Shown in pieces: positions 34,667 through 52,292 of a stretch of 53,376 nucleotides of DNA. Source of the DNA: Bacteroidales bacterium (GTDB taxonomy: Bacteria; Bacteroidota; Bacteroidia; Bacteroidales; Paludibacteraceae); NCBI GenBank assembly GCA_012519885.1, contig JAAYPI010000127.1, forward strand, positions 1 through 53,376, written 5' to 3'. The notes beneath the pieces were generated by a model. It made no database searches. It had not been told where the DNA came from and saw nothing but the letters and a program-made list of their open reading frames with translations. The translations under genes and the position numbers were made by a program. Numbering within the stretch: position 1 is the first letter of the stretch; each line of letters starts with the position of its first letter.

Positions 34667-35130
34667 ACAGAATAAAATCCCCCATTTTTTTAAAAACAGC
34701 TCTCTATTGTTCTTCGGCTGAAAGATGCAAAAGCGAGGTAATAGAACGTTTAAAGAAAGAGACCAATTCTTTAGATGAAATCGAAGAAATTGTAGCTATT
34801 CTGGAAGAAGAGGGATATATCAATGAATTACGTTATGCCATAAGCTATGTACGGGATAAATTCAGATTTAATAAATGGGGTAAAATAAAAATTTCCTATA
34901 TGTTACAATGTAAGAAAATACCCTCGTCAATTATTACAGAAGCTCTTGCCGAAATAGACGACGATACTTATCTGGAGACCTTAACAGCCTTGGTTCTCTC
35001 CAAAAGTAAATCCATTAAATCAACCAATCCATCGGATAAAAAAGCAAAAATATACCGATTTGCAGCAAGCAGGGGTTTTGAAAGCGAAAGTATCCGACAA
35101 GCCCTCATTCAGTGCAGAGTTGACAAGTGA
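34654..35130 (+). CDS. recX: Regulatory protein RecX
   Basis: 158 residues, the RecX family that binds RecA filaments and limits recombinase activity. It is built of three-helix repeats. Family segments are ALYCSSAERCKSEVIERL near the N-terminus, EEGYINELRYAISYVRDKF in the centre and RFAASRGFESESIRQAL at the end. The ATG at 34654 lies inside the prmC 3' end. No recA in the window. Its stop falls at the left arm of a long inverted repeat that probably terminates both recX and the convergent transporter gene. Confidence 0.9.
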   Translation: MEKLDRIKSPIFLKTALYCSSAERCKSEVIERLKKETNSLDEIEEIVAILEEEGYINELRYAISYVRDKFRFNKWGKIKISYMLQCKKIPSSIITEALAEIDDDTYLETLTALVLSKSKSIKSTNPSDKKAKIYRFAASRGFESESIRQALIQCRVDK

Positions 35131-35231
35131 CAGTTGAAAGTGAAAAGTATAAAGTTAGAAAGTTCATAAAGTTGTAAAGTTTTGTGGTTGTTGCTGGTGG
35201 GTTTACTTTATACTTTCAACTTTCAACTGTC
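35129..35231. repeat. Long inverted repeat between convergent recX and transporter genes
   Basis: Arms 35129-35155 and 35205-35231 are 27 bp with two mismatches (arm starts GACAGTTGAAAGT). They are separated by 49 bases that themselves contain AAAGTTNATA repeats. The arms use the same AGTTGAA-type words as the large arrays further right. Likely works as a two-way transcription stop. Confidence 0.75.
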
Positions 35232-36894: not shown

Positions 36895-36920
36895 AAAATG
36901 AAGGTGCAAAATGTAGACCG

Positions 36921-36928
36921 CAAAAGTA
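36921..36928 (-). promoter_or_regulatory. -7 box of the YidE-type gene
   Basis: TACTTTTG on the minus strand, 27 bp before the ATG at 36894. Confidence 0.5.
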
Positions 36929-37334
36929 ATGAAAATTATTGAAAATGGTAAATGTTTAGTGTTGAATGTTGATAGTTGATAGTTGACAGTTGATGGTTGA
37001 TAGTTGAAAGTTGACAGTGGATAGTTGACAGTGGATAGTTGACAGTTGATAGTGTTTAATGTTTAGCGTTGCTCGTTTAGCGTTTCTCGAGCAGAACTGT
37101 CAACTACCCACTTTCCACTATCCACTAAATACGCGACCTCGTTTATGTAGCCAAAAAATGCAGTGAAATGAGCGGTTAAAAAAGAATGCTGTTTGAGATC
37201 CGATTTATCGGAGCGAGTTTTTATTGAGTTGATAGTTGAGAATTGACAGTTGATAGTTTCGCACGAACCACCAACAACGTTTCTCTTCCAACACTTTCAA
37301 CTTTTAACTATACACTTTCCACTGAATAATCGCA

Positions 37335-37400
37335 GTCTTGATTTTTTTTCCTTCGTTTTTTGTATCAAGACAAAAAAGGGAGTGGGTTTCAGGGCAAAGC
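37335..37400. repeat. Two small hairpins inside the repeat region
   Basis: GTCTTGAT (37335-37342) pairs with ATCAAGAC (37364-37371). About 15 bp later CAGGGC-AAA-GCCCTG makes a tight hairpin, a relative of the REP-like GGGC/GCCC element nearby. Confidence 0.55.
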
Positions 37401-37554
37401 CCTGAGTTAGTTGATAGTTGATAGTGTTGAATGTTTAGCGTTGCTTGTTTAGCGTTTCTCGAACAGAACTTTCAACTATCCTCTCTCAACTAAAATAACC
37501 GCACACTAATCATTAAACACTAAACACTATCAACTAAACAAACCAAGATTAACG

Positions 37555-37600
37555 CCTAATTCCAACCAAAAAAAGATATCAGGGCTAACGCCCCCTTTTT
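37555..37600 (-). repeat. REP-like element B, third copy
   Basis: Matches the reverse complement of 51651-51690 over about 42 bases. Includes the GGGC-TAAC-GCCC hairpin, the GATATC/GATTTC flank and the CCAACC-A-run-TAATTCC arm. Only the B half of the composite is present. Confidence 0.65.
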
Positions 37601-37845
37601 TAGTTGACAGTTGACAGTTGAAAGTTGAAAGTTGAAAGTTTTGCACGCTTAACGAGCGACGCTAAACGCTAAACACTAAACGTTTATCACTCTCCACTAT
37701 CAATTAAAACAACACTAAACGTTTATCACTATCAACTATCACTATCACTATCAACTATCCACTATCCACTGTCAACTATCAACTATCCACTTTCCACTAT
37801 CAACTATCAACTAACGAACCCTATTGTTTTTAGCAAAAAATGTAT

Positions 37846-38190
37846 TATCTTTACGTAAGATACTGTCTATGAACAAACCGCTTTGTTGTAAGCGGTTGTT
37901 ATTCAGTTGAATAAAGTTTTATGGAAGGATAAGCATTCTAGGATTTTTGAGCAAAAAAGCCCAAAATCCTTTTGTTGGCGATGTATGTAATAGTTAAAAA
38001 TACTTAAAAATCAGTCTTTTTACACTAATTGTCATCGTTTTGTAATGCAAAATAAGTAAAATAGGATGATCTGGGGATGTACAGTGGTACACCTTATTAT
38101 ATATAGAAGCAGGAAATTGATGACATTAGTCGGAAATAGACTGAGTTAAACAACAAAAATTTTAAAACAACAATTTAATAATTCTTTTTT
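37846..38190 (+). promoter_or_regulatory. Long structured leader of the giant surface-protein gene
   Basis: A near-consensus -7 box TATCTTTA (37846-37853) precedes a leader of about 330 bases. Hairpin 1: AACCGCTT (37876-37883) with AAGCGGTT (37890-37897). Hairpin 2: AGGATTTT (37940-37947) with AAAATCCT (37963-37970) followed by TTTTG, terminator-like. A third small stem TGTAC-AGTG-GTACA is near 38077. No known riboswitch class recognised and no frame found. Confidence 0.4.
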
Positions 38191-41100
38191 ATGGAAAACA
38201 AACATTTACTCAAAAATGCCACGTCTTTCAAAAAGTACTGGCACATTTTGTTGATGGTGTTCGCAGGTATTACTTTTAGTTTGCAGGTGCAAGCTAATGG
38301 TGGTATTGGACCTAAAGCCGTACGTATCAATGTTAATGGTACGCATACGTGGTATAATGTGCACAATCCTGCTTGGGATTATAATCCATGTGGTGAGTAT
38401 AGCACTATTAAGTCTGCTACAAATTTCTCTGGAGCTAATCTTGGAAGTGTTACCTTAGGCAATACTTTTCAATTATCTGGTTATGCTTTAATCGGATGGA
38501 CAGATGCTGCGAATGATTATGTATCTGGTAAGCTAGATTATAAAATCTGGAGACAAGGTGATTCTGAGCCAGGAAGCTGGAGTACAATAAACGTTGGAAG
38601 ATATGACAACTGTATGGGAAGTGCAACACAAGTGGTTTGTACATCTGGAAATGATAGGGTTGTTGGGTACAACAATGGTACTACAGATTTAAGGCAAACA
38701 GTTGCTGGAACATATAACTTTAAAGTTAAAGGTTTTGGTAGGGCACAATGGTATAATGGTAGTGCTTGTGGTAACTTTAATGCAAATGATGGTTCGGAGT
38801 TAACTGCTACTTTTACAGTAACAAATATCAACGATCCCTCATCTCCTACAGTTTCCGTGTCTGGAACAACAGCCACTTTGGGTTGGTCTAAGAATGCCCA
38901 AGCTAATGATGTAATGATTGTACGTTACGCCAAAGGAGCCTCTGTTACTGCGCCTACACAAGGTACAACTTATACAGCAGGAAATTCAATTGGCTTAGGT
39001 ACAGTAGTGTATCGCGGAAATGCTACTTCAACTACCAATGCTATTACAGCAGGAAGTGAATATGATTATTACTTTTATTCAGAAAACTGGAGTTATTATA
39101 GTACAGGAACTGTAAAAGTTACTTTGGAAAATCCTACAGTAACTACGCCTACAGTAACTTCTCCTACAGCAACCTCAATTGCAGCTACTTCTGCAACTCT
39201 GGGTGCTAATGTAACCTCCAACGGAGGTGTTGCTCTGACTGCCAGAGGTACCGTATGGGGTACATCACCAAGCCCTACCGGTAACAGTGTTGCTGAAGGG
39301 GGTACTACTACCGGCATATTTTCACACAGCAGAACAGGTTTAACGGCTAATACCTTATATTATTACAGAGGGTATGCTACTAACTCAGTGGGTACTTCCT
39401 ATTCGGCTGATGGCACATTTACAACCTTACCAGCTGCTCCAACTGTGGGTGCAGGTACGGGTGCAGCTGCTAATTCGTTTACAGCAAACTGGTCGCACCC
39501 AACACAAGGTGCAGCTTCTTATACGTACGAAATTCAGGTATCAACCAACAACAGTACCTGGTTGCCGGTTGCATTTTCGGCAACCGGTATTGCATCTGCA
39601 AATACAAGTACGTCAGTTACAGGTTTAACACAGGGACAAACTTATTACTTTAGAGTCAGAGCAACTAATGCTACCGGTAGTGGTGCATGGTCAGCCTCTT
39701 CTGCCGGTGTTACTACAACAAGTCCGTGTACGCCTCCGGCTAATGTAACAATCAGCGGTGGTGCAACACAATGCGGTGGTACAGTTACCTTAACGGCTAC
39801 CGGTGGTGCGGGTGGTACTATCTACTGGCAAACAGCTGCCGATGGCACATCTACTGCCAATGGCTCCGGTGCTTCTAAGGAAGTAAGTGCAACGGGAACC
39901 TGGTATGCACGTTCGTACAATTCGGCTGATGGAGGTTGCTGGGGTAATATCAGCAACTCTCAAACGGTTACTATCAATACAGTGCCGGTTGCTCCAACAA
40001 CAACAAACGGCAGCCGTTGCGGCACAGGTACTGTAAATTTATCGGCATCGCAACCCAGCGGCTCTAATACCAACAGATGGTATGCGGCTTCCGAGGGTGG
40101 AGCAGTGTTAGCTACAAACACAACTTATACTACTCCGTCTATTTCGTCTACAACTACGTATTACGTATCTGCATACCATAGCACAACCGGTTGCGAAAGT
40201 GCTGCACGTACTGCCGTAACTGCTACTGTAAACAGTACTCCTTCTCAACCATCTGTGATTACAGGAGAAACTTCTCCTCTACCTGGTGCTACCGAAGGAT
40301 ATAGCGTAACCAATGTTGGTGGCGTTACCTATACTTGGTCATTCCCTTCGGGATGGGCGCAAGTAGGTGGTGGTACTACAAACTCAGTTACAGCAACAGT
40401 AGGCACTAGTTCAGGCTCAATTTCTGTTACTCCAAGCATAGGTAGTTGCTCAGGCATACCTCGTACCTTGGCTGTAACGCCTCTCGAAGCACCAACTATT
40501 ACAGCGAAAGTGCCTGATGTAATCAACAACGATTTTACCAGCTTTGCTCCTATTCACGTTAGTGCCAACGGCTATTTAGACGGAGGAACGTTTACAGGAG
40601 AGTATTCATATCAATGGCAAAAATACAATACCGGCAATAGCACGTGGGAAAATTATACAGACGGTCATGGTGCTACTACCAACAATATCCGTGCTCCATT
40701 TAGTGGCGACTACCGTTGTATCGTTACTCGTGATGGTGTTTCAGTAACCTCAAATACGGTTACAATTACTGCTGCTGCTGGTAGTGCAACTACGGTAAAT
40801 ACAAATCTACCAGTAGTAATTATCAATACGGGTGGCGATAATATGCCTGACCAATGTGCTGGTACATATTGGAGTGAGTGTATTCCTAACCCAAGCAATG
40901 TAACACCTATTCCAGAAGCTAAAACAAGAATCCATGCAGACGTAAAAATCTTGTGGGACGGTACTGCTTCGGATACAGATGGTTTTGTAACAGAGAGCGA
41001 TATTAATGACTTAGATAAATTGCATTACGACCGCAAAACACGCGTAAGCTATAGAGGTTCATCAAGCATGAACTTCCCTAAAAAAAGCTATGCGTTTGTT

Positions 41101-44100
41101 ACAGGCGAACCGAATGTAAAAGATAATGGCGAATACCGCAAGGGTAAAACAAACATGTTCGGTCTTTCATCTGGTACACATGCCGACTGGATTTTATACG
41201 CAGCGTATGTGGATGCATCGATGATGCGTAACAAGATAGCTCAAGATACCTATGCTGCTATGACAGGACTTTGGGCTCCAAAGTCGCGCTACGTAGAACT
41301 GTATGTAGATGGCGAATATATGGGTGTATATGTGTTTATGGAAAAAGTAGAAGAATCATCTACCCGTGTTAATTTGGGTGGCTCTGATTACGGTTATTTA
41401 TTTAAGTTTGATAAAACAGATGTGTTCGACCGTGCTGAAGATCGTCACGCGAGCGACCCTGACCAAACAGACGGTAAAACTTTCTTTACGACCAAAACAG
41501 GAAAGAAAAACATTACAACCTACAATTCTGTAGTCGATCAAGCCTTTGAAGTAGAACAATTCCCCGGAAAAGCAGACATTGGCGACGGTAGTGGCAATGC
41601 AGAAAGTGCTTTGGCTGCACTCAAATCAAAATTCAATGAATTTGAAACTAAGTTAGCTGCTGGAGACTTTGAAGCAGTTCGTAACCTAATCGATTACGAA
41701 ACATGGGCTGATTGGTTTATCATTGCTGAGTTTACAAAAAATCCCGATGCTTTCCGTGCTTCAGCTTGGTTTGCATTAAACGATATTGACGCAAGAATTA
41801 AAGCCATTCCAATTTGGGATTATGAACTTGGCTTTAATAATGGAGCTACTGGTCTTAATTATGGCAATAGAAGTACTGCTGGTTGGATGTACACAGACGG
41901 AGGCCACAAATCGGATGCATTCCCAATCCCATTCTGGTGGGAAGGTGGCTCTAACTGGAGTGGAACTCCTAAAGGCTTGCTTGATGATCCATGTTTCAGA
42001 TCTATGATCAAGTCGCGTTGGGCTATACATACTGCTACGGGTGGTGCGTTAAGTGAAGCGGTGATAAATGCAAAAATTGCGGCTATGCATGCTTCGTTAA
42101 ATGAATCGAATGGCACCAATACTCCTATAGCTCGTGAAGTAGCAAAATATCCTGTTGCTAACAGAGGTGTTGCCGGTTATAATAGCCAAAGTTCTTATGC
42201 TACACAAAAATCAACAATCGAAACGTGGATTACAAATCGTAGATCTGCTTTAAGTACACTTATATTTAATTTAGCAGGAGGTATTGAGGTGGCTTCTGCC
42301 GTAGGTGCTCATCCAACAAGTAGTACTTATGTTACATATGACTATGATCCATTTGTATTAACCTTAGATACTGAAGATACGCCTATTGAATGGCAATTAA
42401 CACAACCAAAAGGTGTAACGGATGGATATTTAATCATTTCAGCTGATACAAAATCAGCTACGTTGATTGCTCCTCATCATACAGGCCCATATACACTTAC
42501 TGCTACTTCGCAAGGATCTGTTTGTGGCGAGCCTGCTGTATTGAACTACAATGTATATGTTGATGCTACACCAGCAGAAAGTTGCTCGGAATCTACCATT
42601 ACCGTACGTTTGAGCAAATCATCTGTTACTTCAGTATGGGGGGGCAGTGCTACTCCTCACGTATACGCTTGGGGTGGTGGAGCTACAGGATATGCTTGGG
42701 GCGAAATGCAAGCAATGACATTAAGTGGAGATTGGTGGGTACATACTATTAATGGTGCTACTTCAGGAACTGCGACTAACGTTATTTTTGCTAAAAATAG
42801 TACACCTACTGATGCTGATGCTTCGGATGACATAACTAATATTACAGCCTCAACTTGTTATAATGTTTTATCTGCCACATCTGGTGGAAGCAGCGGTAGC
42901 AGAAGAAATATCGAAACTGTATCTAGTGGATGTCCTTCAGGAGGAGGAACAACCTACATAAGAGTTAAGAAACAAGATAGTTATGCATCCAATACACCTA
43001 ATATATATGTATGGACAGGTGAAGTGAAATATGCAGGAGAATGGCCCGGAACAGCTATGACATCAAGCGGCGATTGGTGGGTATGGTCAACTACGGCTAT
43101 TAGTGCAGGTAATTTCATTATTAATGGAACTGGAGCTCAAACAGCTGACTTAACTTTTACTGGCGACAGATGTATTAGTGTTAATAATGGAGCAGTAACA
43201 GCACAAACGTGTCCTTCGGGCGTTACCGTTACCACACCCAATGCCCTTTTAGGCATTCAAGCAAGTACAGATGATACTGCATTAGAAGTAACCCTTAATG
43301 GGGTAGTGGGTAATACTGGTTGTGCTACTATCACCGCATATGGTTTCCAATATGCTGATAATCCGTCGTTTACTGGTGCTACTACATTGAGTACATCGGG
43401 TGCTCGTACACAAGGACAAACATTCTCAAGCACGTTTGATGCTTCTGATTTAACTTGTGGTGATACGTATTACTACCGCTCTTTCTTAACCAATAGCGTT
43501 GGTACAGATTATTCTGTAACGGGTACCTTCGAAGCTCCTTGCGAACCATGTAATAACTCAGGTGTTACGTATGATCAAGAAGTGTTTATTAATGCTTGCG
43601 ATGCAAGCAAAGTGATTGATTTATCGGCTGGCTTACGTGGTACTATTCCTGGCGATGCTGGTACACTTACGTATTCTGTTGTTGGTGATGCTACAGGTTT
43701 GAGTATTGATGGATCAAACGCAACCTTTAGCGGAAGTGCAAGCAAAGATTACCGTATTCAAGTTGAATTTAGTGCTGGCGATTATTGTGCTGTAAAAGAT
43801 ACATTGCATGTGAGCTATACAAATAATACACCTGCTCTTGGATTTACAAATACCCTTACACCAAGTGGATTGAGTTATGTTACCTATCCTTACAAAGATT
43901 TTGTATTGGAAGCAACAACGTTGGTGCCATCGAATGCAACCATTACATGGAGCTTGATAAGAACAGGGGTTACAGGAGGTGAAATTACGGTATCTCCAAA
44001 TGGTAAATCGGTTACGTTTGTAACAGACCAATTGGCTTCTTCTCCTAATAAATATACTATTCGAGGTACAATACCTGGAGTAGGAACCTGTGATGGAGTA

Positions 44101-47100
44101 ACTGCTGTTTGGGATGTATATGTAGATCCACAATCGTGCGAAGAGTCGAATGCTGGTTCTGTTGTTCGCTTAACAGACCCAGGATATACTTATCAACAAC
44201 AAGGTTGGAATGGTACTGCAATGATATATGTGTACTACAACAAAGCTGTAGGAGGTGCTTTAACTACGCCTAACGGAGCTTGGCCCGGTAAATGGACTGC
44301 TGTTAGCAATGGCTACTCATCAGTAACTATTCCTGCTAGCACCTATGCTGATGCTCAAGATGGAAAAGTATTTGTACAATTTGTTTCGCAATATGATTGG
44401 GGTGGAGCTAGAGGTGAAACATCCTCAATTGAAACGGTAAGTGGAAAGGTATATACCTTATCCTTGAGTGGAACACACGATAATGCTTCTCCAACAAGAA
44501 AATTTAACTCTACGAATACTGAAGTTGCGAATGCTTCTTTACCTTCTGTTGTGCGTGGTTTTGCACCTTCGTTTAATGACAACGAATTAACATTAAATGG
44601 ATATGTTCAGTGTAAAAATGGTGCAGATATAACGGCTCATGGTTTCCAATATGCTACCAATGCAGCGTTTACCAATGCGGTTACTGTAAATAAAACGCCT
44701 GGAACAATCAACGAAGCCACTGCATTTAGTAGTATAGTAAATGTGGGTAACCTAAATTGTGCTACTACATATTATTACAGAACGTTTGCTACCAATAGTT
44801 CAGGTACTGGATATTCTGATGCTTCTACGTTTTATGTACCAGCTTCTGAATATTGTGTAGATTGTGGTAGTTTTGAAGGTGATACCATTACCTTTACCAT
44901 TGATAGTGATTTCACGGCAGATAATGATTGTGCTCTTCGCTACCGTTCGTTAGAGGGTGCAGTGGCTAAATTGAAAGCCACACCAGATTTCTATGATGCA
45001 GCAACTACTGAATTGAAGAAATTTATCATTATGAATGTTGTGCCAAGAACTACACCATATGCGGGTACTGCAAATCCAGTATTCTCTGGTGGTGGTGAAA
45101 ACATTGGTTCATACACTGTTCACATGATTGATGATATCAACGACTTAGATGCGGTAGATTATCAATATATGTATAATGACACAGTGCCTCGTACCTTGAC
45201 GATACAAAGTGCAAGTGCTACCGTGAAACCAAGTATCAAAAGTATTATCTTACGTAGAGTGAAAAATGTACGTTTGAGTAATTTAGCTATTTTAGGTACC
45301 ACAACTTCTACGTCAGCTGAAACAAATGCCTTGGATATTGATAACGGCAGTGGGCAATGGATAGACGACGGACCTGCAGGTAGATACAAAGACGGTAATA
45401 TTGTTATAGAAAATTGTTACATTACATCGAAAGGATTTACATGCGTACACGTATCTGCTTATGAGGGAGTTACGTTCCGTAATAATGAGTTAGAAGCAAA
45501 ATTAACAGATGCTGAATTGTCGGTGGAAAATACCCAAAAATGGGGAGCTTCAGCTAAGTTTATTCGTACTACTAATATTTTGTTTGAACGTAATAACTTC
45601 CGTGGCGACCACGCTACCTTAGTATGGTTACAAGAAAGTAAGAATGTGTTGTTTATGAATAACGTATTTTGGGCAACTAATAACGTTAATGCACAGCAAG
45701 CATTTATCAAGCTGTTAGCTCAAGCAGGAGCTAATAATGTTGAAAACAATGCATTTTATTACAATACCTTGTTTTTGAACGATGGTACAAGTAATAATAC
45801 ACAAACAGACTTCTTCCGTTTGGGTAGGGCTGATATAGATGAACAAAAAGCAAACCAAGATAAATATATTGCATCTGGTATTGCATTTGAGTACAACAAC
45901 TGTTATTCTTACGAACCTACTGTAACAGGTAAACGTGCTGATACCTTCTTGTCTCGTAATGCGGCAGACTTTACCTTGTTGAAAAATAATAATTTCTGGT
46001 CAATTTCAGCAGGTACAGTATCTACGGCATTGTCTTTTGGTACAGGTGTTAACACGATTGGTGTAAAAGCTGAATTATGTTCTACAGCTCCAAACGATCC
46101 GATGGGTCTAGTAGTAAAAGGAGAAGACTTGAATGTTGGTTCAGCATTAACAACAGATATTACTGGTTTAGGTGCTATGAGCATTCACAGAAAAGACCGT
46201 TTACATACTGCCCCTATACGTCCTGTAAGTGGTACAGGTTGGACATTAGGAGCTTACCAACAAACAAATGGTATTTCTGTGGATACAATCATTTGGACAG
46301 GAGCATTTGATAATGACTGGGATAACCGTAACAACTGGATTGATGCAGCTACACGTCAAACATTATCATGTGTTCACCAATTATCTGAAGATCTTGTGGT
46401 TATTATACCATCTTATACAGGAAGTGAAATTTATCAGTCTCCAACTGGTCAGATTGAGCATGAACCAATATTACCAGCACAATTTGATGCTACTCATAGA
46501 CCAATTAAAGTAGACAATGAGCATGTAGACGCAGGTGCTGGTTTGACTTCCTTTACTCCTACTCAATTTGCTAAAAAGATCGAAATTGAATACGGTGGTA
46601 GCTTATTGAATGCACACAAATTGAAGCCAGGCGAAGACCGACGTTACGATGAAGTAACCATGCATTTGGATTTGAACAATAGATCTGAATGGGTATTGGT
46701 AGGACCAGTAGTACAACCATTTACTGATGGTACGAAAACAGCTGTTCGTCAGTTACAATCTGGTGATTTCTTCTTGAACTTTGAGCCTCACGTGTATATG
46801 AACTATGTAAATATTGATACTACCACAGGTGCTGTAACATGGGCTGCTCCATTTACACAATTAACCGAGCCTGTAGGTCCACAACAAATATTTGCAATTC
46901 GTGTGCCTGACCAATATGGTAATCAAAAACCTGTTCGCTTTAAATTGCCTGCTCAATTCTATTACCTTGATAGATTTGGTGGGACTGCCGAACAAAGAGC
47001 ATTAGGTACAGCTCCTATTAAATATACATTTAATGGTCGCTTATCAGATGAAGCTGGATTGCGTCAATACACTATCGAATCTGCTCACCAAATTTTAAGC

Positions 47101-48027
47101 AATACGTTCCCAGCAAACTTAGATGCTTCTACTGTAGCTGCTGCTGGTGGTACAGTTAAAGTGTATGATTATGATTTAAAATCATTTGTAGCTGCTGAGG
47201 GTGGAGAAACCATCAAACCAATGCATGGATTTATTTACTCACGTAGTAATGCTGAACAAACTACTTTACAAGTAACAGATTCTATGATTGTATTTGGTAA
47301 TACGAAGTACAGAAAGAGAACAGTAACACAACCATTGTTCTGTATGAATGTACAAAATACCAATAATACATATGGTAGTCGAATTGGTGTAAAATATAAA
47401 GCTGATAAAGCGGACGAGTTTGATGGAACGATTGACGCTGAAAAATTGTTTAATGATCAGGATTTAACTGTACCAGAGGTTTATATGTTAGCTTATAGTA
47501 AAAAACTTGAAACAAAAGGAATTAATCAAGCAACAGAAATAATTCCTTTAGGTATCCGTACAAATGCTGAAAAATCATTGAAGTTCACACGTCATAGTAC
47601 AGATGGTTATGAAGAAGTGATCTTAGAAGATAGACAAACAGGAAATTCATACGATATGTTAGCAAGCTCTACTGGATATGTTATTAACAACATACCATCG
47701 GGTAATAACGAAGGTCGTTTCTATTTACATCTTACTGTAGCTGAAGATCGTATCCCAAGTACTATTGGTGAAGAAACCATTGGCTCTTCGGATGCAGAAG
47801 AGTTTGATATTGCTATCTTTGCACAAGGTAAACAAGTAACAGTAAGTTCTTCGCAAAATCTTGTAATTGAAACAATTTTAGTAAGTGATATGGCAGGACG
47901 CACGCAAGTGTTTACAGCAAGTAATCCTCACTTCAACCAGTTAAATTTACAAGTGGCACAAGGTACTTATATAGTGAAAGTAATTGGCGATAAAGGAACT
48001 AAAGAAGCGAAAGTGATTATTAAATAA
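38191..48027 (+). CDS. Giant T9SS-secreted protein: Fn3/Ig-like, CotH kinase, starch-binding-like modules, beta-helix
   Basis: 3278 residues, no frame break. Signal peptide about 1-35 (cleavage VQA-N). A Cys-containing N-domain (36-230) precedes Fn3/Ig-like modules (about 230-870). A CotH kinase domain (about 900-1365) has YRGSSSMNFPKKSYAF, VNLGGSDYGYLFKFDK and IPIWDYELGFNN. Three modules resemble CBM26 starch-binding domains (about 1465-1560, 1587-1667, 1989-2110; HVYAWGGG, NIYVWTGEVKYAGEWPG, DWWVWS). Two YYYR-type Fn3-like modules are at about 1680-1780 and 2117-2224. A right-handed beta-helix (about 2337-2534) and a WTGAFDNDWDNRNNW module (about 2698) follow. The last 75 residues (VIETILVSDMAGRTQVF, GTYIVKVIGDKGTKEAKVII) are a type-A Por sorting domain, so it is exported by T9SS to the surface. 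CotH proteins phosphorylate protein substrates; the partner here is unknown. Confidence 0.88.
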   Translation: MENKHLLKNATSFKKYWHILLMVFAGITFSLQVQANGGIGPKAVRINVNGTHTWYNVHNPAWDYNPCGEYSTIKSATNFSGANLGSVTLGNTFQLSGYALIGWTDAANDYVSGKLDYKIWRQGDSEPGSWSTINVGRYDNCMGSATQVVCTSGNDRVVGYNNGTTDLRQTVAGTYNFKVKGFGRAQWYNGSACGNFNANDGSELTATFTVTNINDPSSPTVSVSGTTATLGWSKNAQANDVMIVRYAKGASVTAPTQGTTYTAGNSIGLGTVVYRGNATSTTNAITAGSEYDYYFYSENWSYYSTGTVKVTLENPTVTTPTVTSPTATSIAATSATLGANVTSNGGVALTARGTVWGTSPSPTGNSVAEGGTTTGIFSHSRTGLTANTLYYYRGYATNSVGTSYSADGTFTTLPAAPTVGAGTGAAANSFTANWSHPTQGAASYTYEIQVSTNNSTWLPVAFSATGIASANTSTSVTGLTQGQTYYFRVRATNATGSGAWSASSAGVTTTSPCTPPANVTISGGATQCGGTVTLTATGGAGGTIYWQTAADGTSTANGSGASKEVSATGTWYARSYNSADGGCWGNISNSQTVTINTVPVAPTTTNGSRCGTGTVNLSASQPSGSNTNRWYAASEGGAVLATNTTYTTPSISSTTTYYVSAYHSTTGCESAARTAVTATVNSTPSQPSVITGETSPLPGATEGYSVTNVGGVTYTWSFPSGWAQVGGGTTNSVTATVGTSSGSISVTPSIGSCSGIPRTLAVTPLEAPTITAKVPDVINNDFTSFAPIHVSANGYLDGGTFTGEYSYQWQKYNTGNSTWENYTDGHGATTNNIRAPFSGDYRCIVTRDGVSVTSNTVTITAAAGSATTVNTNLPVVIINTGGDNMPDQCAGTYWSECIPNPSNVTPIPEAKTRIHADVKILWDGTASDTDGFVTESDINDLDKLHYDRKTRVSYRGSSSMNFPKKSYAFVTGEPNVKDNGEYRKGKTNMFGLSSGTHADWILYAAYVDASMMRNKIAQDTYAAMTGLWAPKSRYVELYVDGEYMGVYVFMEKVEESSTRVNLGGSDYGYLFKFDKTDVFDRAEDRHASDPDQTDGKTFFTTKTGKKNITTYNSVVDQAFEVEQFPGKADIGDGSGNAESALAALKSKFNEFETKLAAGDFEAVRNLIDYETWADWFIIAEFTKNPDAFRASAWFALNDIDARIKAIPIWDYELGFNNGATGLNYGNRSTAGWMYTDGGHKSDAFPIPFWWEGGSNWSGTPKGLLDDPCFRSMIKSRWAIHTATGGALSEAVINAKIAAMHASLNESNGTNTPIAREVAKYPVANRGVAGYNSQSSYATQKSTIETWITNRRSALSTLIFNLAGGIEVASAVGAHPTSSTYVTYDYDPFVLTLDTEDTPIEWQLTQPKGVTDGYLIISADTKSATLIAPHHTGPYTLTATSQGSVCGEPAVLNYNVYVDATPAESCSESTITVRLSKSSVTSVWGGSATPHVYAWGGGATGYAWGEMQAMTLSGDWWVHTINGATSGTATNVIFAKNSTPTDADASDDITNITASTCYNVLSATSGGSSGSRRNIETVSSGCPSGGGTTYIRVKKQDSYASNTPNIYVWTGEVKYAGEWPGTAMTSSGDWWVWSTTAISAGNFIINGTGAQTADLTFTGDRCISVNNGAVTAQTCPSGVTVTTPNALLGIQASTDDTALEVTLNGVVGNTGCATITAYGFQYADNPSFTGATTLSTSGARTQGQTFSSTFDASDLTCGDTYYYRSFLTNSVGTDYSVTGTFEAPCEPCNNSGVTYDQEVFINACDASKVIDLSAGLRGTIPGDAGTLTYSVVGDATGLSIDGSNATFSGSASKDYRIQVEFSAGDYCAVKDTLHVSYTNNTPALGFTNTLTPSGLSYVTYPYKDFVLEATTLVPSNATITWSLIRTGVTGGEITVSPNGKSVTFVTDQLASSPNKYTIRGTIPGVGTCDGVTAVWDVYVDPQSCEESNAGSVVRLTDPGYTYQQQGWNGTAMIYVYYNKAVGGALTTPNGAWPGKWTAVSNGYSSVTIPASTYADAQDGKVFVQFVSQYDWGGARGETSSIETVSGKVYTLSLSGTHDNASPTRKFNSTNTEVANASLPSVVRGFAPSFNDNELTLNGYVQCKNGADITAHGFQYATNAAFTNAVTVNKTPGTINEATAFSSIVNVGNLNCATTYYYRTFATNSSGTGYSDASTFYVPASEYCVDCGSFEGDTITFTIDSDFTADNDCALRYRSLEGAVAKLKATPDFYDAATTELKKFIIMNVVPRTTPYAGTANPVFSGGGENIGSYTVHMIDDINDLDAVDYQYMYNDTVPRTLTIQSASATVKPSIKSIILRRVKNVRLSNLAILGTTTSTSAETNALDIDNGSGQWIDDGPAGRYKDGNIVIENCYITSKGFTCVHVSAYEGVTFRNNELEAKLTDAELSVENTQKWGASAKFIRTTNILFERNNFRGDHATLVWLQESKNVLFMNNVFWATNNVNAQQAFIKLLAQAGANNVENNAFYYNTLFLNDGTSNNTQTDFFRLGRADIDEQKANQDKYIASGIAFEYNNCYSYEPTVTGKRADTFLSRNAADFTLLKNNNFWSISAGTVSTALSFGTGVNTIGVKAELCSTAPNDPMGLVVKGEDLNVGSALTTDITGLGAMSIHRKDRLHTAPIRPVSGTGWTLGAYQQTNGISVDTIIWTGAFDNDWDNRNNWIDAATRQTLSCVHQLSEDLVVIIPSYTGSEIYQSPTGQIEHEPILPAQFDATHRPIKVDNEHVDAGAGLTSFTPTQFAKKIEIEYGGSLLNAHKLKPGEDRRYDEVTMHLDLNNRSEWVLVGPVVQPFTDGTKTAVRQLQSGDFFLNFEPHVYMNYVNIDTTTGAVTWAAPFTQLTEPVGPQQIFAIRVPDQYGNQKPVRFKLPAQFYYLDRFGGTAEQRALGTAPIKYTFNGRLSDEAGLRQYTIESAHQILSNTFPANLDASTVAAAGGTVKVYDYDLKSFVAAEGGETIKPMHGFIYSRSNAEQTTLQVTDSMIVFGNTKYRKRTVTQPLFCMNVQNTNNTYGSRIGVKYKADKADEFDGTIDAEKLFNDQDLTVPEVYMLAYSKKLETKGINQATEIIPLGIRTNAEKSLKFTRHSTDGYEEVILEDRQTGNSYDMLASSTGYVINNIPSGNNEGRFYLHLTVAEDRIPSTIGEETIGSSDAEEFDIAIFAQGKQVTVSSSQNLVIETILVSDMAGRTQVFTASNPHFNQLNLQVAQGTYIVKVIGDKGTKEAKVIIK

Positions 48028-48046
48028 TTGCAATAATGCTGAATAT

Positions 48047-48080
48047 AAAAAAAGGAAGAACGAAAGTTCTTCCTTTTTTA
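48047..48080 (+). terminator. Terminator of the giant gene
   Basis: AAAGGAAGAAC (48051-48061) and GTTCTTCCTTT (48066-48076) form an 11-bp stem capped by a GAAA tetraloop, followed by T residues. Confidence 0.93.
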
Positions 48081-48470
48081 GTTGACAGTTGACCGTTGAC
48101 AGTTGATAGTTGATAGTTGAAAGTGGACAGTTGATAGTTTTGCTCGAGCAACGCAAAACATTAAACACTAAACACTAAACACTTTCAACTATCAATTGTC
48201 AATTATCCACTAAGATGTCAGGGCTAACGCCCCTAATAATATGACGTATTGTATTTTGCTACGAAGATAGCAGAGCTACGCTCCTTTTTTCAGTTGAAAG
48301 TGGAAAGTGGACAGTTGATAGTTTTGCTCGAGCAACGCAAAACATTAAACATTAAACACTAAACATTCAACACTAAACATTCAACACTAACCATTAACCA
48401 TTAACCACTAACCATTAACCATTAACCACTAACCACTAACCACTAAACATTATCAACTAATCATTCAACT
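48079..48470. repeat. Heptanucleotide arrays between the giant gene and the PPDK_N gene
   Basis: The left arm (AGTTGAC/AGTTGAT words, 48079-48140) turns at TTTTGCTCGAGCAACGCAAAA into ATTAAAC/ACTAAAC and ACTATCA-type words. After a REP-like composite a second two-armed array follows. From about 48340 it is a run of ATTAAAC, ACTAAAC, ATTCAAC, ACTAACC and ATTAACC units in strict 7-base phase up to about 48450. It fills the 488-bp gap; no gene here. Confidence 0.85.
48212..48290 (-). repeat. REP-like composite element, left copy
   Basis: Element B hairpin GGGC-TAAC-GCCC (48221-48232), about 37 bases of spacer, element A hairpin GAGC-TAC-GCTC (48273-48283), then a T run. Read on the minus strand it has the same order and flanks as 51594-51676: A-run, GGAGCGTAGCTCTG-ATATCTT, spacer starting GTAG-AAAAT, AGGGGCGTTAGCCCTGA. 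Confidence 0.75.
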
Positions 48471-48487
48471 TTCTCAAATTTTTTAAT

Positions 48488-48495
48488 TACCTTAG
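48488..48495 (+). promoter_or_regulatory. Possible -7 box of the REC-PPDK_N gene
   Basis: TACCTTAG, one base off TAnnTTTG, 20 bp before the ATG. Weak call. Confidence 0.3.
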
Positions 48496-48515
48496 CATCA
48501 TCAAAAAACTATTAG

Positions 48516-51488
48516 ATGGACAAAACCTTAAATCTACAGAAACTCTATTTTAAAGATACTTCTTTTGTTAGTTTAATGAAAGAACGTATTTATAATATAC
48601 TACTTATTGCGAGCAAGTATGATGCTTTTATGCTCGAAGAAGATGGCAGGATTGATGAACTAATTTTCAACGAATATACAGCACTTAATTTGCGTTATCC
48701 ACCACGTTTTACTATTGCCAGTGAAAACAAAGAAGTAAAAGAATTATTACAAACGCGTCATTTTGACCTAATTATTGCGATGCCAACAAGTGATAATAGT
48801 CATATCTTGGAAATGGCAAATGAATTGAAGGTTAGTTACGCAGATATTCCAATTGTTGTTTTAACAACCTTATCACGTCGCATCTTTAAACGGGTATTTT
48901 CTGAGGGCGATTTTTTACATGTTGACTATGTATTTAGTTGGCTAGGAAATTCTGATTTATTATTGGCTATTGTCAAATTGCTAGAAGATAAGTTAAATGT
49001 AGATGATGATGTTACCTCAGTAGGTGTACAAGTTATTTTGTTTGTTGAAGATTCCATTCATTTTTATTCTTCTATTTTGCCATATTTGTACAAACATGTA
49101 TTTACTCAATCGCTGTCATTTATGACCGAAGCACTGAATGCTCACCAGCAAATGTTACGGATGCGAGGAAGACCTAAGATTTTATTAGCTCGCACTTACG
49201 AAGAAGCTATGTTTTTATATAAAAAATATCAAAAAAACATGTTGGGTGTAATAACTGATGTGCGTTTTCCTAGAGCGGGTCAGATACATCCAACCGCTGG
49301 ATTGGAGTTAAGTCAGGAAATTAGAAAGTTGGATCCGTTTGTCCCTATTATAGTTGAGTCAAGTGAGCCAAAGGGCGTTTGTGAGCAAACAGACAGGCTA
49401 TGTGTCATTTTTTTAGATAAAACAGACAAAACCTTTCACAAACAATTTAAAGACGCTATAACGCATCATTTTAAGTTTGGCGATTTGGTATTTGTGTCTC
49501 CTGACACCCGTGAAGCTTTGATAACGGTACATAATCTGCAAGATTTGCAGAAACATATTTTTGATATTCCTGCAAATTCTTTGTTTTATCATTTGGCTCA
49601 AAATGATTTATCTCGATGGCTCTATTCACGGGCGATGTTTCCGCTAGCTGAATATTTGCGTTATATCGTTATTAAAGACATAAAAGATATTGACAGGGCA
49701 AGACATATTGTGTTTGATGCGATTGTAAATTATCGCAAGATTAAAAACAAAGGTATTGTGGCTGGTTTTCAAAGCGATAGATTTGATGAATACTCCAATT
49801 TTGCACGAATAGGAGAAGATTCGATGGGAGGAAAAGGGAGAGGGTTAGCATTTTTGAATGCTGTTTCAAAACGTAATCCAACTTTGTATGATTTTGAAAA
49901 TACGCAAATAACTGTTCCTAAAACAGTTGTGCTTTGTACAGATATGTTTGATGAGTTTATGGAAACAAACAATTTGTATGTAGTAGCGTTGCGAGAAGAT
50001 GTATCCGATGAACAAATTTTAGAGGTTTTTTTGGAGGCAAGATTGCCACGAAAAATCATGAAAGATTTGTATGCTCTTTTAGGGGTAATTCAAAGTCCGA
50101 TTGCAGTTCGATCGTCTAGCTTACTAGAAGATTCTCATTATCAGCCTTTTGCGGGGATTTACTCCACCTATATGGTTCCGAATGTATCAGAGAGTCGTAC
50201 TACTACTTTACGGATGGTGTGTGATGCTATTAAAGCGGTATATGCATCTGTATTTTATGCAGATAGCAAAGCATACATGAAAGCCACTAAAAACCTGATA
50301 GATGAAGAGAAAATGGCTGTAGTGTTACAAGAAGTGTGTGGAAATGCTTATGGAAATCGGTTTTATCCTTCTTTCTCGGGAGTGGCACGATCGTTAAATT
50401 ATTATCCTATTGGCGAAGAAAAACCCGAAGAAGGTGTTGTTAATGTTGCATTAGGTTTAGGGAAATACATTGTTGATGGAGGGCAAACATTACGTTTTTG
50501 TCCAGCGTATCCAAATAAGGTGCTTCAAACGAGTACCATGGAGTTTGCTCTTAGTGAAACACAAAATTATTTTTATTGTTTGGATTTAGCACAAAGGTCG
50601 TTTAAACCAAGAGTAGATGATGGCGATAATTTGCAAAAACTACATATTAGAGAGGCTGAACAAGATGGTACATTACGTTGGTTAGCATCTACTTTTGATC
50701 CTATTGACCAAGTAATACGTGATGGAGTATATGCAGGTGGACGCAAGTTAATCACTTTTGTAAATATCTTAGAACATCAGTCTTTTCAATTGGCGGATAT
50801 ATTGAAAAATGTATTGACGGTTGGCGAAAAAGAAATGGGATGTCCAGTAGAAATTGAATTTGCCGTACATTTAGATTATGAAAAAAATGAGCAACACACC
50901 TTTTATTTACTTCAAATACGTCCAATTGTAGGCTTAAATGAATCGTTAACAGAAGATATAAGCCTTATTTCAAAAGAAAAAACTTTTCTCTCGACTACTA
51001 ATGCTTTAGGAAATGGCATTATGAATGATGTCTATGATGTAGTATACGTTAAAAAAGGAGCTTTCAATCCTTCTAAAAATATCTTGATAGCTTATGATAT
51101 CGAAAAAATAAATAAGCAATTAGTTGCTGAAGATAAATCTTATATATTGGTTGGTCCTGGTCGCTGGGGAAGTAGTGACCATTGGTTAGGTATTCCTATT
51201 AAGTGGCCACATATTTCGGGAGCACGCGTTATTGTTGAAGCTGGAGAAACATCGTATCATATCGACCCAAGTCAAGGTACTCATTTTTTTCAGAATTTAA
51301 CGTCTTTTGGTGTGTGTTATTTTACGATAACTCAAAACGAAGATGACTATTATGATTGTGCTTATTTGGACGAACAGGAAGCTTTGCACGAAACAGAATA
51401 TATACGTCATGTACGATTTTCATCTCCATTACTTGTAAAAGTTGATGGGAGAAAGAACAGAGGGGTGGTTTTGAGAGGGGATAGTTGA
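48516..51488 (+). CDS. REC-REC-PPDK_N protein (PEP/pyruvate-binding domain), phosphohistidine domain absent
   Basis: 990 residues. The N-terminus holds two receiver-like domains. The first (about 25-160) lacks the phosphoacceptor, with FDLIIAMP at that place. The second (about 172-330) keeps acidic E178-D179 (FVEDS), a candidate acceptor D248 (VITDVRFPRAG) and K302 (FLDKTDK). A PPDK N-terminal ATP-grasp domain follows (about 430-830): GEDSMGGKGRGLAFLNAV, PIAVRSSSLLEDS, PFAGIYSTYM, VVLQEVCG and a final LLQIRPIV. The catalytic-His swivelling domain and PEP barrel of true PPDK/PEP synthase are missing. The C-terminus has VGPGRWGSSDHWLGIPI. Possibly a phosphotransfer or nucleotide-binding regulator. 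Cytoplasmic, isolated between repeat arrays. Confidence 0.85.
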   Translation: MDKTLNLQKLYFKDTSFVSLMKERIYNILLIASKYDAFMLEEDGRIDELIFNEYTALNLRYPPRFTIASENKEVKELLQTRHFDLIIAMPTSDNSHILEMANELKVSYADIPIVVLTTLSRRIFKRVFSEGDFLHVDYVFSWLGNSDLLLAIVKLLEDKLNVDDDVTSVGVQVILFVEDSIHFYSSILPYLYKHVFTQSLSFMTEALNAHQQMLRMRGRPKILLARTYEEAMFLYKKYQKNMLGVITDVRFPRAGQIHPTAGLELSQEIRKLDPFVPIIVESSEPKGVCEQTDRLCVIFLDKTDKTFHKQFKDAITHHFKFGDLVFVSPDTREALITVHNLQDLQKHIFDIPANSLFYHLAQNDLSRWLYSRAMFPLAEYLRYIVIKDIKDIDRARHIVFDAIVNYRKIKNKGIVAGFQSDRFDEYSNFARIGEDSMGGKGRGLAFLNAVSKRNPTLYDFENTQITVPKTVVLCTDMFDEFMETNNLYVVALREDVSDEQILEVFLEARLPRKIMKDLYALLGVIQSPIAVRSSSLLEDSHYQPFAGIYSTYMVPNVSESRTTTLRMVCDAIKAVYASVFYADSKAYMKATKNLIDEEKMAVVLQEVCGNAYGNRFYPSFSGVARSLNYYPIGEEKPEEGVVNVALGLGKYIVDGGQTLRFCPAYPNKVLQTSTMEFALSETQNYFYCLDLAQRSFKPRVDDGDNLQKLHIREAEQDGTLRWLASTFDPIDQVIRDGVYAGGRKLITFVNILEHQSFQLADILKNVLTVGEKEMGCPVEIEFAVHLDYEKNEQHTFYLLQIRPIVGLNESLTEDISLISKEKTFLSTTNALGNGIMNDVYDVVYVKKGAFNPSKNILIAYDIEKINKQLVAEDKSYILVGPGRWGSSDHWLGIPIKWPHISGARVIVEAGETSYHIDPSQGTHFFQNLTSFGVCYFTITQNEDDYYDCAYLDEQEALHETEYIRHVRFSSPLLVKVDGRKNRGVVLRGDS

Positions 51489-51837
51489 AAATGGATAGTT
51501 GAAAATGGATAGTGATAAACGTTTAATGTTTAATGTTTAGCGTTGCTCGTTAAGCGTGCAAAACTGTCAACTCTCAACTGTCAACTCTCAACTAAAAAAA
51601 GGAGCGTAGCTCTGATATCTTGGTAGAAAATGAAAAATCCCAGGAAGTAGAGGGGCGTTAGCCCTGAAATCTTTTTTGGTTGGAATTAGTCGTTGAGCGT
51701 GGTTTGTTTAGTGGATAGTTGAAAGTGGATAGTGATAAATGTTTAGTGTTTAGCGTTTCTGGTTGGGCGTTTCTGGTTTAGCGTTGCTCGTTAAGCGACC
51801 TGAACTATCAACTATCAACTATCAACTTTCAACTAAA
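51484..51837. repeat. Heptanucleotide arrays after the PPDK_N gene
   Basis: It starts inside the last codons of the PPDK_N gene. ATAGTTG/AAAATGG units pass through TTAATGT, TTAGCGT, TGCTCGT and TAAGCGT, then turn to TGTCAAC/TCTCAAC units in the same 7-base phase (to about 51593). After the REP-like composite a second array runs from about 51700 to 51837. Together they fill the 405-bp gap; no gene seen. Confidence 0.85.
51594..51690 (+). repeat. REP-like composite element, right copy
   Basis: Element A (51601-51620, GAGC-GTA-GCTC hairpin), about 30 bases of spacer, then element B (51651-51671, GGGC-GTTA-GCCC hairpin) and a TTTTTTGGTTGGAATTAG flank shared with the inverted copy at 37555-37600. 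It is oriented opposite to the copy at 48212-48290, so the PPDK_N gene lies between inverted copies. Confidence 0.75.
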
Positions 51838-51866
51838 AAATAGAGTCAGTTTTCACTAACTCTATT
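51835..51866 (-). terminator. Terminator of the Cys-rich secreted protein gene
   Basis: A 12-bp stem (51839-51850 with 51855-51866, one G-U pair, loop TTTC). On the minus strand it is followed by U residues. 27 bp beyond the stop codon. Confidence 0.85.
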
Positions 51867-51893
51867 TGTATTTTTGTTATTATGCTTAAGTTT

Positions 51894-52292
51894 TTATGCT
51901 TCTTTTCTTTTTCTTCTCAATTTGACTCCAGCGTACCCTCCGCTAAGAAGTAACAGAAAGAAGAAGCCTGACCCAATGGGAAGAGAATATGTTTCGCAAG
52001 CATCCATACAGGTTGTATAAGCAATAAAAGCATCGTCTTCGCAAATAGGGTCTCCTCCACACGCAGCAAACGCAATCGTTAGGTCATCTAAACAAGCATC
52101 CATACATGCTTCATTCCCTAATACTGAATTAGTAGCACCAATTCTGTTTCCTACACTTAAGGTTGGCTCATCCATAAAACTTCCTCCATCAGAAAAGGCG
52201 GGACCAGAATATCCTTTGGAAGGCAACTCTGCACTAAAAGCGATAAAACTGCTTAGAATAAATATGGTTAGTAAAAGTATAAATTTCTTCAT
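51894..52292 (-). CDS. Secreted Cys-rich miniprotein with C-terminal membrane anchor tag
   Basis: 132 residues. Signal peptide 1-20 (ends AFS-A). The middle region has exactly six cysteines, C63, C67, C78, C84, C95 and C99, giving the symmetric spacing CX3C-X10-C-X5-C-X10-CX3C with two CMDAC repeats. This is the pattern of a disulphide-stapled helical hairpin. The C-terminus is LPIGSG, a hydrophobic helix (about 109-123) and KLRRKRK, resembling tripartite sorting tags (motif, helix, basic cluster) of the PEP-CTERM type. No family recognised. Own terminator downstream; upstream terminator at 52324-52351 separates it from the next gene. Confidence 0.75.
   Translation of the reverse strand: MKKFILLLTIFILSSFIAFSAELPSKGYSGPAFSDGGSFMDEPTLSVGNRIGATNSVLGNEACMDACLDDLTIAFAACGGDPICEDDAFIAYTTCMDACETYSLPIGSGFFFLLLLSGGYAGVKLRRKRKEA

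Follow-up and report, generated by a model that had tools for sequence, protein, structure and literature searches.

We found a real, non-random repeat system that advances in 7-base steps within the window, the 53,376-nt stretch of the Bacteroidales bacterium contig JAAYPI010000127.1 analysed here. The explanation we prefer, at roughly even probability, is that its arrays are minisatellites born of slippage at gene borders, whose orientation is filtered by translation signals. The strongest new points are a 16-species series at a single gene junction, and a strand rule at gene ends that recurs in a word without runs of G.

Lag-7 self-match analyses gave an identity of 0.686 for the array at 36951–37132, which a preliminary description of this DNA had singled out, and 0.511, 0.613 and 0.522 for the three other sites it had named (37219–37818, 48079–48470 and 51484–51837, respectively). 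These values are far above the background of 0.267 over window bases 1–35000 and 0.240 within the 9.8-kb ORF at 38191–48027, whereas at lags 6 and 8 the arrays were close to background. TRF recovered the same arrays, with a period of mostly 7 or 14, such that both methods identify tandem 7-bp units of the kind known from intergenic heptamer repeats. The internal strand switch that had been read in these arrays is visible once the sequence is cut into 7-mers; the region is then a stack of eight two-armed units (e1–e8). AGTTGAN/AGTGGAN words make up the left arm and their complements the right; in most units the middle consists of TTTAGCG, TTTAGTG or AAACACT words and includes a TTGCTCG-like core. 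The units and the features beside them are as follows.

35118..35228, unstranded: heptamer array, weak and decayed, in which the recX ORF ends with its stop codon.
36951..37132, unstranded: e1, the array of the preliminary description; left arm AGTTGAN/AGTGGAN, middle TTTAGCG-type, right arm TCAACT/TCCACT.
37222..37330, unstranded: e2; left and right arms both short.
37408..37545, unstranded: e3; core 89% identical to that of e1 over 85 bp.
37600..37815, unstranded: e4; left arm AGTTGAA, inner AAACACT words, long right arm.
48054..48079, plus strand: perfect 8-bp terminator-like hairpin, GGAAGAAC-GAAA-GTTCTTCC followed by a T-run, just 5′ of e5 and after the ORF at 38191–48027.
48079..48216, unstranded: e5; core 94% identical to that of e6 over 82 bp.
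48290..48472, unstranded: e6; short left arm, long AAACATT/AACCATT run, short right arm.
51476..51596, unstranded: e7; includes the stop codon of the ORF at 48516–51488.
51706..51837, unstranded: e8; two-armed unit.
51838..51867, minus strand: terminator-like hairpin from the terminator scan, adjoining e8.

The hairpin at 48054–48079 is absent from the terminator-scan list; the interval 36900–52000 held 13 terminator-like sites, against 9.8 in shuffles (sd 4.0). Sigma-70 promoters were rejected as an account of the arrays: TTGACA-17-GATAGT does occur inside them, but the same interval contained 40 promoter-like sites against a shuffle mean of 47.0. An Rfam search of the window returned 0 matches at gathering score, and hence no member of a known structured RNA family. 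Other small elements lie among the units. A second repeat, GGGGCGTTAGCCCTGATATCTT, forms a small GGGC-GTTA-GCCC hairpin between heptamer units (37581–37594, 48219–48233 and 51652–51666), and in a tract of contig C30 (L157, 8980–9710) its first 12 bases recur without mismatch seven times, with variants besides. A third small hairpin word, AGAGCTACGCTCC, adjoins arrays at 48272–48284 and 51601–51613, once per strand. The two stacks of heptamer units flank a single 3278-aa ORF (38191–48027).

The preliminary description had further held that phase is kept across the two arms. Within the window this holds, as the arm finder gave the same 7-base start phase in 6/6 left/right pairs; as a general property it fails, since arm pairs in relatives occur in all seven phases. 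The window units are not independent of one another, because their cores are shared: e4 and e7 are 88% identical over 98 bp in inverted orientation, and cores on contigs C70 and C196 are 93% identical over 61 bp. Units related in sequence can share a common phase by descent, and we therefore rejected phase locking as a general law. The proposal that positions within the unit vary unequally fared better. Mismatch between adjacent units along AGTTGAN was 0.18, 0.12, 0.10, 0.31, 0.39, 0.29 and 0.63, a profile whose phase was fitted to AGTTGA, which somewhat favours this result. Unequal variation was seen in 6/6 sets, with the last base the most variable in five; in the arrays of genome G051 it was the fifth base.

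We then consider distribution. The window's own genome (2.28 Mb, 219 contigs) gave 101 overlapping word matches on at least nine contigs when two mismatches were allowed, and our filter found arrays in seven of eight own-genome stretches, contig C184 being the one without. A strict-pattern search of 41 genomes, own genome included, matched six, all of the same family; in one genus of that family the AGTTGA-type pattern occurs in 9 of 16 species (1 to 181 matches per genome). Scanning named genomes for three AGTTGAY units followed by AGT, a scan in which the own genome was possibly not included, found at least 80 loci, belonging to cyanobacteria, to Bacteroidota and, for at least nine loci, to sources labelled otherwise (among the matches listed: Firmicutes, Planctomycetes, Actinobacteria and others, mostly MAGs). 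The pattern read backwards is a poor control for such searches because AGTTGATAGTTGA is a mirror repeat. A restriction of the arrays to this locus, or a period-7 signal no stronger than background, would have counted against the preliminary description; neither is the case. Words differ by genome (the window has AACTATC, G051 has ACATCAT and AAAGTTG, and G053 has ACAGTGG and AATAATT), and across genomes the step is constant while the word is not. The layout seen in Bacteroidota, a convergent unit of complementary arms plus core, recurs with AGTTGAT/AGTGGAT words in a contig labelled Planctomycetaceae (L101, 5209–5408), and in genome G002 a 400-bp AAGAGGT/AAGGGGT-type array is followed by TCAACT words (L174, 4433–4938).

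Exact two-copy runs fell inside ORFs in 478/653 cases at period 5, 381/485 at period 6, 51/297 at period 7, 16/63 at period 8 and 18/24 at period 9. We called the ORFs ourselves, greedily and with a 100-aa minimum, and the count covers 1.15 Mb from five genomes, in which many stretches were picked for arrays and densities are therefore biased. Period 7 lies mostly outside genes, as intergenic heptamer repeats do, which, together with an array shared by two species that differs by whole heptamers (below), gives good support to the earlier suggestion that some process advances 7 bases at a time.

A tally of array positions against gene ends, which had been proposed as a check, placed 102/147 AGTTGA-family arms at a gene border, 34 far from borders and 11 inside ORFs, with a marked strand bias. 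The AGTTGA strand was sense in 43 and antisense in 15 arms at gene 3′ ends, and sense in 5 and antisense in 39 at 5′ ends. This bias persisted whether arms had no opposing arm within 120 bp (sense:antisense 22:10 at 3′ and 4:28 at 5′ ends; Fisher p = 8e-6) or were partnered (21:5 and 1:11, respectively). For other words, counted once per border by the sign of skew, period-8 arrays gave 11:8 at 3′ and 1:15 at 5′ ends (p = 0.0016), and the remaining non-AGTTGA period-7 words differed weakly (15:6 and 5:8; p = 0.08), whereas ATGTATG words showed no 5′/3′ difference (30:6 and 10:1). The strand rule is wider than one word, but it is not universal. The ATGTATG-type heptamer, a second one in G051 (contig C12, L299–L303), makes up 42/101 period-7 segments of that genome. 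In contrast to the AGTTGA family, it mostly has its G-rich strand in sense orientation at either gene end.

At gene 3′ ends the stop codon lay within the arm, allowing a 7-base margin, for 38/43 AGTTGA-sense arms but only 2/15 others. AGTTGA arms close all frames, so that an ORF running into one must end there; the point of this count is that arrays reach into gene ends. Supplying stop codons was rejected as a universal function of the arrays: the argument is not general because AGTGGAC and GGGAATC words contain no stop.

The orientation of neighbouring arms bears on a reading in which the hairpin itself is selected, the convergent arms folding as RNA or DNA to act as a terminator, insulator or transcript stabiliser between genes. 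Adjacent arm pairs were convergent in 41 cases and divergent in 0, with 11 right-right and 8 left-left, a tally in which at least one locus (L043 = G053:C1) was counted in two groups; in cyanobacteria 2/13 pairs were convergent and the rest pointed the same way. As the preliminary description had foreseen, the arms do fold: e1 has an RNA folding energy of −60.8 kcal/mol (z −5.27 against dinucleotide shuffles), and 7/8 window units fold better than 100 shuffles of their own 7-mers (z −2.0 to −6.1), which is in line with the hairpins formed by intergenic heptamer repeats of Nostoc (PMC2670836). The exception is e6 (48290–48472; z −0.6). However, by our own arithmetic the border biases alone predict only ~3% divergent pairs, so that the zero count requires no hairpin, and the same polarity is found in arms that have no partner to pair with. 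Left and right arm lengths were moreover uncorrelated in the three larger sets (rho 0.12, −0.10 and −0.12); for a five-member set the value was 0.82 (p = 0.09). Pairing is thus rejected as the sole organising principle, and we regard a selected hairpin as unlikely.

We located the ruvX-def junction in 16/16 species of the related genus and excised it with 12 flanking coding bases per side, so that the final ruvX codons are covered. In 11/16 the segment measures 41–53 bp and has no array, with a possible remnant, CGGTGGAAAA, in G054; the other five carry arrays that differ in words and length, in segments of 69 bp (G052), 73 bp (G007), 108 bp (G053), 117 bp (G055) and 173 bp (G051). G007 and G053 have a common array, to which G053 adds three units in the left arm and two in the right; the right side of G055 is made of other words, ACTCCTAA. 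Array-encoded residues such as SGQ take the place of the final RuvX residues (ESKR-like in most other species) in the carriers, and the ruvX stop codon lies inside or at the edge of the array. New here are the junction series and the whole-unit differences in both arms between two species, along with the strand bias of AGTTGA arms at the two gene ends, the stop codons found within 3′ arms, and the extension of the rule to 8-base but not to ATGTATG words. Among 187 orthologous neighbouring-gene pairs, an exact period-7 stretch was present in neither species in 137, in one in 37 and in both in 13, a count that spans 60–75 coding bases per side and so takes in some coding repeats. Examples of short against array-bearing gaps among the pairs listed are 0 vs 36 bp, −1 vs 50, −8 vs 62 and 9 vs 51. 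Among orthologues of the window's neighbouring genes, the comparison took in eight loci, at the C-terminal end of the 990-aa ORF.

These observations are consistent with arrays of minisatellite character whose origin and turnover proceed in 7-base (sometimes 8-base) steps, with slippage in DNA synthesis as the probable cause. Such arrays would persist at gene borders, since within a gene a change of 7 bases disrupts the frame, and translation may then filter their orientation. An arm growing into a gene 3′ end would be tolerated provided that its G-richer strand is sense, and in AGTTGA words that strand brings a stop in every unit; an arm beside a start codon would be tolerated if the sense strand is G-poor and free of stop and ATG codons, as in TCAACT. 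The latter fits the preference in Flavobacterium, where translation benefits from adenines and little structure ahead of the start codon (Baez et al. 2019, PMC6847099). With a filter of this kind at both borders, the two arms of a gap would usually converge, and the hairpin would follow. In the own genome, two-armed units with shared cores may also have been copied as blocks, which would account for their common phase.

Against slippage filtered by translation stand the ATGTATG words and the weak difference in the other non-AGTTGA period-7 words. Slippage also does not account for the choice of 7 over 5 or 6, for the same words recurring at many loci in several phyla, or for one unit position varying far more than the others. 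A bolder reading, to which we lend decidedly little credence, is that an active process common to Cyanobacteria, Xanthomonas and Bacteroidota builds DNA at gene ends in 7-base (or 8-base) steps, independently of the word and with polarity, running the G-rich strand inward from each border and rewriting the stop and last codons.

Arrays of binding sites for an RNA- or DNA-binding protein (cold-shock, S1 or CsrA type), with one contact every 7 bases, would suit the unequal conservation along the unit with its one free position, and the arms found near start codons. This reading is improbable, given that the words vary between genomes, even at one junction, and that 11 of the 16 species do without the ruvX-def array. 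A miniature mobile element inserting at gene borders would agree with the cores common to different loci and contigs (e5/e6 and C70/C196), with the sporadic distribution in the family and with the array-free state of more than half of the sister-species junctions. However, at this one junction the words differ between species and change by single units, convergent arms are present but no target duplication is evident there by eye, and the REP-type transposase Y1_Tnp was not found in the array-rich G007 and G051–G055; we consider such an element more improbable still.

A template-copying enzyme (a reverse transcriptase, telomerase-like) writing 7-base units is a very remote prospect: it would explain the same words at many loci and in several phyla with one freely variable position, and RVT_1 matches occur in G000, G051, G053 and G054, but RVT_1 was not found in the array-rich G007, G052 and G055 (drafts 78–100% complete, in which absence is no proof) and is present in the array-poor G042 and G045. 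Over 19 genomes, Y1_Tnp profiles matched five (four over the cut-off, with G000 and G002 among the matches) and RVT_1 matched six, the own genome having both. Neither enzyme tracks array abundance, and both were rejected as makers of the arrays. Rho loading on the C-rich strand was also considered.

A close parallel is provided by the GGGAATC / GGGGA(C/T)T heptamers of Xanthomonas and Nostoc, for which intergenic bias, convergent pairs and a strand rule are described and quadruplexes were considered (Rehm et al. 2015, PMC4692102). Like the AGTTGAN arrays, these combine fixed and free positions (GGGANTN), are biased to intergenic DNA (89–93% in Xanthomonas) and converge (70 and 75 convergent pairs in two species); their G-rich strand is antisense 0–50 bp before ORFs and sense 0–50 bp after them, stop-codon overlaps included, as is the case here. 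The AGTTGA arrays differ in word and phylum. They also differ in persistence, as the GGGAATC species pair mostly keeps its repeats at the same gene pairs, whereas the ruvX-def array is absent in 11/16 species. AGTTGAN has no run of Gs and AGTGGAN only GG, so that the quadruplexes considered for GGGAATC are not expected; the strand rule recurring in such a word therefore calls for a non-quadruplex cause.

Contrary to the statement that no named element of this kind exists in the phylum, TAACTGA direct repeats are reported from Beggiatoaceae, Cyanobacteria and five Bacteroidetes, where they are proposed to be bound by a protein of the cold-shock, S1 or CsrA kind (MacGregor 2015, PMC4679880), the only account of heptamer repeats in Bacteroidota that we found in the open-licence literature. 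Those repeats resemble ours as intergenic heptamers, often near start codons, in the same three groups, with relatives that have shorter gaps and no repeats, and with other heptamers in the same gaps. The words differ, being AGTTGAN and AGTGGAN here; the window holds AACTATC, AACTGTC, AAACACT and similar words, and TAACTGA is not its unit. Relative to TAACTGA, the two-armed convergent units, the strand rule at both gene ends and the array-supplied stop codons are described here. Cyanobacterial STRR heptamers of Calothrix and Nostoc (PMC2670836, PMC4692102) are likewise intergenic, hairpin-capable 7-bp tandem units, though of other words and another phylum. The P6b stem of the Nostoc trnL intron is likewise assembled on both sides from 7-base motifs (TDNGATT or NNTGAGT), with variation by whole repeats (Kaasalainen et al. 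2015, PMC4476775); that stem is part of a folded intron, whereas the present arrays lie in gaps between protein genes, and the window gave no Rfam match at gathering score to a group I intron. A proposal cited by both PMC4692102 and PMC4679880 traces the 7-base length to the contact of DNA polymerase.

The genus, with its 16 species (nine with and seven without the AGTTGA-type pattern), is a natural series in which to seek the source of the 7-base steps and to trace how arrays come to occupy the termini of housekeeping genes, ruvX among them.
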